Of a stretch of DNA of 64,000 nucleotides, positions 6,799-27,646 are shown in pieces. The stretch spans positions 1 to 64,000 of the forward strand of contig CAMDTB010000002.1 in NCBI GenBank assembly GCA_945907245.1. The letters run 5' to 3'. Origin of the DNA: Rhizobium sp. Q54 (GTDB lineage: Bacteria; Pseudomonadota; Alphaproteobacteria; SMXS01). A program made the translations under genes and the position numbers. How positions within the stretch are numbered: position 1 is the stretch's first letter; each line of letters begins with the position of its first letter. The notes under the pieces are model-generated. The model saw only the letters and a list, made by a program, of their open reading frames with translations. It was not told the origin of the DNA and did not search any database.

Positions 6799-7257
6799 AT
6801 GGATTATCAGGTTGAAACGGCCGGCGCCGAGCTGTCGCCGTCGCAGATTGCCGCGCAGCTGGCGTGCGCCAACGTACTGACGGTGTTCATTCACCTGATC
6901 GACGACAACCGCTCGCTCGAACTCGTCGAGTTGTTCGCCGAGGACGGCGTGATGGAGGCTGTGCCGCACACCTTCAGCGGCCGCACGCAGATCCGCGAGT
7001 TCCTGGCATCCCGGGCCGGCGGCGCGCCCACCCGCCGCACCCTCCACGCGCTGTCGAATTCCGTCTTCCGGCACGTGTCGGAGCGTGAGGTGCACTGTAC
7101 GTCCGTGATGACGGTGTTCGCCTTCGACGCGTCGCAGCCGCGGGCCGACCTGACGCCGGACTCGCTCTGCAAGCTGGAGGACAGGTTCGTCAGGGATACG
7201 GACGGCGCGTGGCGCTTCGCGCACCACCGGCGCAGCTTCATCGTCCAGGCGGCCTGA
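6799..7257 (+). CDS. SnoaL/NTF2-like protein, 152 aa
   Basis: The pattern is that of the NTF2-like alpha+beta barrel (SnoaL_4 type): an N-terminal helix with 'LIDDNRSLELVELFAEDGVMEA', 'FSGRTQIREFLASR' in the middle, and a C-terminal 'EDRFVRDTDGAWRFAHHRRSFI'. Relatives act as small-molecule cyclases, dehydratases or binding proteins; the substrate here is unknown. The ATG at 6799 has a GGGG-rich site upstream. It is a single gene between the ribosomal terminator and dnaB. Confidence 0.75.
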   Translation: MDYQVETAGAELSPSQIAAQLACANVLTVFIHLIDDNRSLELVELFAEDGVMEAVPHTFSGRTQIREFLASRAGGAPTRRTLHALSNSVFRHVSEREVHCTSVMTVFAFDASQPRADLTPDSLCKLEDRFVRDTDGAWRFAHHRRSFIVQAA

Positions 7258-7391
7258 GCAGCCTTTCCAGACTCGCCTTGGGCGACACCGACGAGAAACT
7301 CGTGGGACCATGGGACCCACGGCGCCCTTCCCGGCGTTGAGTTCGTCGTCGGGCATGGTCATCGCCACCCGGTTCGATCACCTGTCCCCGT

Positions 7392-7411
7392 TTTTCCACA
7401 CCTGTGGATAA
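7392..7411. promoter_or_regulatory. inverted pair of DnaA-box-like sites upstream of dnaB
   Basis: TTTTCCACA (7392-7400) and TGTGGATAA (7403-7411) face each other across two bases. The second is the exact complement of the consensus DnaA box TTATCCACA; the first differs from it at one position. The site lies 106 nt before the dnaB start codon, where a promoter is expected. DnaA is known to act as a transcription regulator as well as initiator, so control of dnaB by DnaA is a reasonable inference. Confidence 0.55.
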
Positions 7412-7516
7412 ATCCCCTGTGTAGGAAATCGAGTTCCTGATATGTTCACGTGACGGGGTGCCTGCGGTCGTGCTCAATGGCGAGTCTTCCGCTCAAGCCA
7501 ACGAGGATACGCGCCC

Positions 7517-9016
7517 ATGCCGTCAGGATTTCAGGATAGCGCCCAGCTTGCCGGCCTCGACGCGCCGCAGGGCTATACTGGTCTGCCCCACAATCTGGAG
7601 GTGGAACAGGCGCTTCTGGGCGCGATCCTCGTCAACAACGACGCCTCCAACCGGGTGTCGTTCCTGACGTCGGATCACTTCTTCGACCCGCTGCATCAGC
7701 GCATCTACGCCACGGCCATGCGGCTGATCGAACGAGGCCAGCTGGCGATTCCCGCCACCCTGAAGACCTACCTTGAGGCAGACCCGGGACTCAAGGAAGT
7801 GGGCGGACCGCAATATCTGGCCCGACTCGCCGCCGCCGCGACCTCCTTGCTCCATGCCGAGGAATATGGCCGGACGATCTACGACCTGTCGCTGCGCCGC
7901 CAGCTGATCCTGATCGGCGAGGAAACCGTTCAGAACGCCACCGACGGCGATACCGAAAACCCGGCCATCCATCAGATCGAGCATGTCGAGCAGAAGCTGT
8001 TCAACCTTGCCGAGAGCGGCCAGGCGGAAGAAGGCTTCAAGCCGTTCTCCCGTTCGCTCGGCATCGCCATCGAGAACATCGAGGCGGCCCACAAGCGCGA
8101 GGGCAAGCTGACCGGCGTCTCCACCGGCATGCGCGCCATGGACGACCTGCTGGGCGGCCTGCACAGGTCGGACTTGATCATCCTCGCCGGGCGCCCGTCC
8201 ATGGGCAAGACGGCGCTGGCCACCAACATCGCCTTCAACGCGGCGCGGCGCTGGCAGCGCTCCAAGCTCGAGGGCGAGGATCCGGCGAAAGGCGGCGGCG
8301 CGGTGGTCGGCTTCTTCTCGCTGGAAATGTCGGCCGAGCAACTCGCCGCCCGCATGCTGTCGGAGCAGGCGGAAATTCCGTCGGAGAAGCTGCGCCGGGG
8401 CGACATGACCTCGGACCAGTTCCGCGCCCTCGTCCGCGCGTCCCAGGAGATCGAGGATATCCCGCTGTTCATCGACGACACGCCGGCGCTGTCGATTGCC
8501 GGCGTGATGTCGCGGGCGCGGCGGCTCAAGCGTCAGCACAATCTCGGCATGGTGGTGATCGACTACCTGCAGCTTGCCCGTCCATCCGGCCATCAGAAGA
8601 CCGAGAACCGGGTGCAGGAGGTTTCCGAAATCACCCGTGGCCTCAAGGCCTTGGCGAAAACACTTAACGTTCCAGTGCTGGCCCTGTCGCAGCTCAGCCG
8701 CTCGGTCGAGCAGCGCGAGGACAAGCGGCCCCAGCTTGCCGATCTGCGCGAATCCGGCTCCATCGAGCAGGACGCCGACGTGGTCATGTTCGTCTACCGC
8801 GACGAGTACTACCACGAGCGCCGCCAGCCCGAGATGGGCACGCCCGCCCACCAGGAGTGGCTGGAGCGCGGCGAACGCATCCGCGGCGTGGCCGAGGTGA
8901 TCATCGGCAAGCAGCGTCACGGCCCCACCGGCGTCGCGCGCTTGCACTTCACCAAGGAAACCACCAAGTTCGGCGATCTCGCGGAGATGGACCACTTGCC
9001 GGATCGCACGTTTTGA
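7517..9016 (+). CDS. dnaB: replicative DNA helicase DnaB
   Basis: DnaB is the hexameric 5'-3' helicase of the replication fork. The 499-aa protein has the N-terminal DnaB domain (about 22-125, PHNLEVEQALLGAIL), a linker, and the RecA-like C-terminal domain. Walker A is GRPSMGKT at 225-232. IDYLQL (Walker B-like), 'ALSQLSRSVEQR' and 'DLRESGSIEQDADVV' follow. A short insertion rich in Gly/Lys follows Walker A at about 245-262, as in other alphaproteobacteria. Its TGA overlaps the TTG start of mlaE, so it heads a coupled run of genes. Confidence 0.96.
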   Translation: MPSGFQDSAQLAGLDAPQGYTGLPHNLEVEQALLGAILVNNDASNRVSFLTSDHFFDPLHQRIYATAMRLIERGQLAIPATLKTYLEADPGLKEVGGPQYLARLAAAATSLLHAEEYGRTIYDLSLRRQLILIGEETVQNATDGDTENPAIHQIEHVEQKLFNLAESGQAEEGFKPFSRSLGIAIENIEAAHKREGKLTGVSTGMRAMDDLLGGLHRSDLIILAGRPSMGKTALATNIAFNAARRWQRSKLEGEDPAKGGGAVVGFFSLEMSAEQLAARMLSEQAEIPSEKLRRGDMTSDQFRALVRASQEIEDIPLFIDDTPALSIAGVMSRARRLKRQHNLGMVVIDYLQLARPSGHQKTENRVQEVSEITRGLKALAKTLNVPVLALSQLSRSVEQREDKRPQLADLRESGSIEQDADVVMFVYRDEYYHERRQPEMGTPAHQEWLERGERIRGVAEVIIGKQRHGPTGVARLHFTKETTKFGDLAEMDHLPDRTF

Positions 9017-27398: not shown

Positions 27399-27646
27399 GC
27401 GAAATCCCTCCACCCGGACCGGCCAATCCCCCCGGAGGTGTCAGCTTACAGCGATTCCTTGCAACGGTGAACGACACCAGCGCTCAGGGGCTTCAATCAC
27501 GCATGCTTCGGCCATGGCCGGCGAGCCCGGGCATCGACGTGCCCAGGGCCGCCGCCCCGACTTGGCGGATCGCCGACGGCATGGCTTCGTAACATTTTCC
27601 CTGTCACCGAAGGTCGGAAATGCTGTTGGAGGAAAGTGCCGGACCA

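Follow-up and report, generated by a model that had tools for sequence, protein, structure and literature searches.

The 64,000-nucleotide stretch of DNA analysed here (the window) was read in part, and the genes found were mltG, fabF, fabG, fabD, rpsF, rpsR, rplI, a SnoaL-like gene, dnaB, an ABC-type permease and ATPase pair, radA and purF, with all names except SnoaL and DnaB assigned by reading the translations. The SnoaL-like gene (Pfam SnoaL_4) occupies positions 6799-7257, between rplI and dnaB. The open reading frame at 7517-9016 (+ strand) matched the Pfam families DnaB_C (1e-102) and DnaB (7e-25) and encodes the replicative DNA helicase, as an earlier note on this DNA had proposed.

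Paired DnaA boxes and a LexA-type box upstream of dnaB

To describe the dnaB upstream region, we used a box scan together with an alignment of seven promoters. Two near-consensus DnaA boxes, one exact and one with a single mismatch, face each other as TTTTCCACA-CC-TGTGGATAA at 7392-7411, and the dnaB ATG follows 105 nt further on, with positions 7412-7516 in between. The left arm, TTTTCCACA (7392-7400, + strand), is the DnaA-like box with 1 mismatch, and the right arm, TTATCCACA (7403-7411, - strand), is the exact box, inverted and 2 bp from the left arm; both were delimited from the box scan and the alignment columns. The symmetric pair described in the earlier note is thus confirmed in its coordinates, its 2-bp CC gap and the quality of each box. 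A degenerate half-box, CTGTCCCCG (7382-7390, + strand), lies upstream of the left arm and was recognized from the sequence, the alignment and a class-wide motif: its position matches TTAYCCMC in 4 of the 7 aligned promoters and TTATCCCC in the motif. We consider it a weak half-box in this genome because it has 4 mismatches to TTATCCACA.

A LexA/SOS-type box overlooked in the earlier note, GTTCCTGATATGTTC (7433-7447, + strand; GTTC-CTGATAT-GTTC), lies 21 bp downstream of the box pair and 69 nt before the dnaB ATG, and was identified by pattern search, by alignment and by the presence of the same motif before lexA. We found no terminator-like site or hairpin in 7255-7530, and a consensus scan detected no sigma-70-like promoter at dnaB.

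Single boxes with at most 1 mismatch were not enriched in the window (5 observed for 4.05 expected). Box pairs with starts 9-12 nt apart occurred once in the window and never in 60 Markov-simulated sequences of 64 kb, and a search of the whole 3.34-Mb genome for TTWTCCACANNTGTGGAWAA with up to 3 mismatches returned one place only, the dnaB site. Both results bear out the earlier estimate that back-to-back boxes would seldom arise here by chance. Exact copies of TTATCCACA number 5 in the genome, located at dnaB, at a uvrC-like gene, at one other place and, for the last two, at the end of contig 41. The copy preceding the uvrC-like gene (contig 3, 10989) has a GTGGATA-type half nearby, and a LexA-type box is absent from that locus. 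The two copies on contig 41 are 20 nt apart (27483-27511), at the very end of the contig, and possibly belong to an origin region cut by the assembly.

Conservation of the sites in close relatives

We located dnaB in 29 of the 31 genomes searched and aligned the promoters of six genus members (our own genome included) and of one member of a sister genus (G007). The right box is kept in its exact form in 7/7 promoters, with 8 of 9 columns invariant. The left arm is strong in 3/7 and has 3 invariant columns out of 9. Of the 128 columns that lie outside the motifs, 18 do not vary. Our genome, G003 and G005 combine a strong left arm with a weak upstream half-box, whereas G001, G002, G006 and G007 show the opposite pattern, with TTAYCCMC upstream and a weak left arm. 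The conserved unit is thus one inverted box plus a partner, and the partner is found in one of two places. In G008 and G009, which belong to a third genus of the same family, we found TTATCCCC-type boxes and no palindrome. The earlier note held that absence of the palindrome from close relatives would count against its reading, and the outcome is divided: the right box persists in all seven promoters, but the well-paired form is limited to our genome, G003 and G005.

The LexA-type box is present at dnaB in 6/6 genus members and in G007, that is in all 7 aligned promoters from two genera, and is absent in G008 and G009. All 8 half-site columns are invariant, against the 18 of 128 among the remaining columns (hypergeometric 7e-7, an approximate value because neither columns nor sequences are independent). 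The half-sites are constant while the spacer and flanks vary, and G007 is 39% identical to our genome outside the motifs. Searching our genome for GTTCN7GTTC yielded 80 matches versus 24 for the reversed pattern, including one before dinB, and the motif precedes lexA in 10/10 genomes examined, 7 of them genus members. The same pattern is given as the Caulobacter LexA consensus in PMC12700426, where GTTCttgttatGTTC is common to two Caulobacter SOS genes.

A rival account is that DnaA alone controls dnaB and that the GTTC repeat is no LexA operator but arose as a chance match or serves as a core-promoter element. Many of the 80 genomic matches are probably due to chance, and the 3' half of the repeat, TATGTT, can be read as a -10 hexamer. 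The DnaA-only account is also favoured by recA: among 8 members of the source family examined, none had GTTCN7GTTC within 250 nt of the recA match start, and recA was dropped as a further LexA target. The missing box would be unusual in a canonical SOS regulon and speaks against one here; as a recA box is a usual but not absolute feature of such regulons, its absence lowers the LexA claim and does not bar it. Against a chance repeat stand the half-sites, invariant across two genera in the midst of varying sequence, the excess of matches over the reversed pattern and the use of the motif by lexA itself, and we regard control by DnaA alone as unlikely. In the broader class, GTTCN7GTTC was found at dnaB in 3 of 144 genomes, all chance-like matches, and class-wide LexA control of dnaB was rejected.

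The neighbourhood upstream of dnaB differs between relatives. Judged by its upstream sequence, G003 likewise has a SnoaL-like gene between rplI and dnaB; G005 shows no more than a tail-like remnant in its place, and in G002 an rplI-terminator-like repeat lies immediately 5' of the dnaB control region. The DnaA and LexA-type sites remained with dnaB. Separately, a sequence labelled Candidatus Kuenenia (CALQFM020000018.1) carries a dnaB that shares 97% identity with the alphaproteobacterial one studied here, and its label looks wrong.

DnaA boxes at dnaB and palindromes elsewhere in Alphaproteobacteria

We then considered 144 alphaproteobacterial genomes outside the source family, which provided 143 dnaB upstream regions (window -300 to -60). 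A near-DnaA box was present in 71/143 of them, versus 7/141 and 9/141 in control windows, leaving 72/143 with no near box in that interval; exact boxes numbered 22 at dnaB and 0 in the controls. In a set of 80 named dnaB loci, which is biased to Rhodobacteraceae and includes three genus members, a near box was found at -300 to -60 in 58/80, versus 0-3 of 77-80 in eight control windows, and exact boxes numbered 21 versus 0. Many Rhodobacteraceae mark dnaB with a single exact box that has no partner. Outside Alphaproteobacteria, the signal was weak (6/40 other Proteobacteria, 2 of them exact, versus 2/40 in a control window), and a wider spread of dnaB boxes was not retained.

The boxes might also titrate DnaA or reactivate it as DARS sites do, and play no part in dnaB transcription; E. 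coli offers a parallel in DARS1, described in PMC6015884 as a box cluster inside the uvrB promoter. Over about 7 kb of flank plus gene, however, the enrichment is limited to a few hundred bases 5' of dnaB, as would be the case for promoter sites, which makes a titration or reactivation role improbable.

When motifs were sought with no seed taken from this locus, the width-10 result was.TTATCCACA and the width-32 result ..TTaTCCCCG..aTTCACa...tg (TTATCCCCG..aTTCACA, then a weak tg), with several top rows of the latter extending as CACAGGCTGTGGATAA. DnaA-like boxes are enriched at dnaB in both orientations, direct and inverted, and the inverted arrangement CACA-N3-TGTG occurred in 19/141 upstream regions versus 0/141 in the control and 0.42 in shuffled sequences. 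Inverted boxes are commonly 3 bp apart in the class, while the 2-bp form of our genome was found in 0/141 upstream regions.

To identify the genes neighbouring such palindromes, we searched 192 genomes of the class for two forms, spacer-3 and, with at most 1 mismatch, spacer-2, and called the neighbours using the NF006577, TIGR01464, TIGR01391, MnmE and Maf models. This yielded 18 sites: dnaB 5, nrdA 3, hemE 2, dnaG 1, mnmE 1 and other 6, so that 12/18 lie at named loci; a reversed-pattern control yielded 0 palindromes in either spacer search. The spacer-3 form accounts for 7 separate sites, at dnaB (3, assigned by distance to dnaB matches), at dnaG (1), near mnmE (1) and at other places (2). 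The spacer-2 form accounts for 11, at dnaB (2, our genome and G005), at the gene for the class I ribonucleotide reductase alpha subunit (3), at hemE (2) and at other places (4). The hemE region is a usual place of the origin in Alphaproteobacteria, and one of the two hemE palindromes has maf on its other side. The three genomes with 2-bp inverted pairs before the ribonucleotide reductase alpha gene represent different alphaproteobacterial families. These positions, like the conservation of the dnaB sites, are read directly from the genome sequences.

Symmetric sites generally suit dimeric regulators, and the palindrome could be the operator of another such protein that merely resembles two DnaA boxes. 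This would leave aside that direct boxes are enriched at dnaB as well as inverted ones, that the palindromes elsewhere lie at the replication-linked nrdA, hemE and dnaG, and that partnerless exact boxes mark dnaB in many Rhodobacteraceae; we therefore consider it very improbable. DnaA is the best-supported binder because boxes are enriched at dnaB and the palindromes lie mostly at replication loci, a gene company that, as far as sequence can indicate, fits DnaA and poorly fits an unrelated regulator. The genome's own DnaA is intact (TIGR00362, 573.6 bits) and carries GGRDHTTVMHA, which we take to be its DNA-binding signature; no near DnaA box was found upstream of dnaA within the stretch scanned. 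The attribution to DnaA made in the earlier note appears sound as regards the class-wide enrichment and the replication-locus palindromes and is weakened by the well-paired form being present in only 3 of the 7 promoters aligned.

Proposed control of dnaB and comparison with known systems

We propose that the region upstream of dnaB is probably a compact control region, at which DnaA would act on a box cluster and, in this lineage, LexA would repress the same promoter. DnaA would bind the cluster 5' of dnaB and tie transcription of the helicase gene to initiator activity, the inverted 2-bp pair presumably being the local version of an array that in Alphaproteobacteria consists of two direct boxes and an inverted one. 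LexA acts as a repressor. In this lineage it would also sit on GTTCCTGATATGTTC and repress the same dnaB promoter, so that dnaB would also rise once LexA is cleaved after DNA damage; with the LexA site beside the DnaA boxes, the supply of helicase may respond to the initiation of replication as well as to DNA damage. That DnaA and LexA occupy these sites, which way DnaA acts and where the promoter lies are inferred. DnaA is most likely an activator at dnaB, because Caulobacter dnaB is reported in the DnaA regulon (PMC8203912); the sign is uncertain since DnaA represses several E. coli genes, according to the parts of PMC8203912 and PMC6015884 that deal with them.

A broader reading in two parts, which we advance tentatively and would put at somewhat short of even, is that a head-to-head DnaA pair with a fixed 2-3 bp gap recurs at alphaproteobacterial replication genes (dnaB, nrdA, dnaG and the hemE locus), in a geometry unlike the E. 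coli tandem double box, and that LexA was added at dnaB in the source family. With LexA added, the replicative helicase gene would become an SOS gene, and one promoter would read both initiator level and damage. Should this hold, many Alphaproteobacteria couple the supply of helicase to the initiator by way of a conserved DnaA site, and in one family dnaB has been placed under the damage response too. This gives two testable cases: joint control of an essential replisome gene by DnaA and LexA, and a contrast in DnaA box pairing between Alphaproteobacteria and E. coli. In the open-access literature, our searches turned up neither joint control of dnaB by DnaA and LexA nor an earlier description of the class-wide inverted box spacing.

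DnaA control of dnaB is already reported in one model species, Caulobacter crescentus, whose dnaB is placed in the DnaA regulon by a review (PMC8203912, citing Hottes et al. 2005). In both systems DnaA boxes precede the gene for the replicative helicase; a LexA site goes unmentioned in the portion of the review available to us, whereas here, judging from sequence alone, an inverted 2-bp pair is followed by a LexA-type box. The Mycobacterium tuberculosis dnaB similarly has a putative SOS box and is overexpressed after mitomycin C (PMC8151990), although it belongs to an unrelated phylum and the comparison covers its SOS box only. The E. coli uvrB gene, co-repressed by DnaA and LexA according to PMC6015884, resembles dnaB in having DnaA and LexA boxes within one promoter region. 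It differs in being a repair gene with some overlapping boxes, whereas the sites here are separate and precede a helicase gene, and the LexA sequence here is of the alphaproteobacterial type. Finally, DnaA of E. coli has a preference for boxes paired at a distance of 2-3 bp (PMC11317965), and our pair is alike in having two boxes at such a distance (2 or 3 bp), one of them non-consensus; the boxes are tandem in the motif modelled in that source, as far as its available text describes it, and inverted here.
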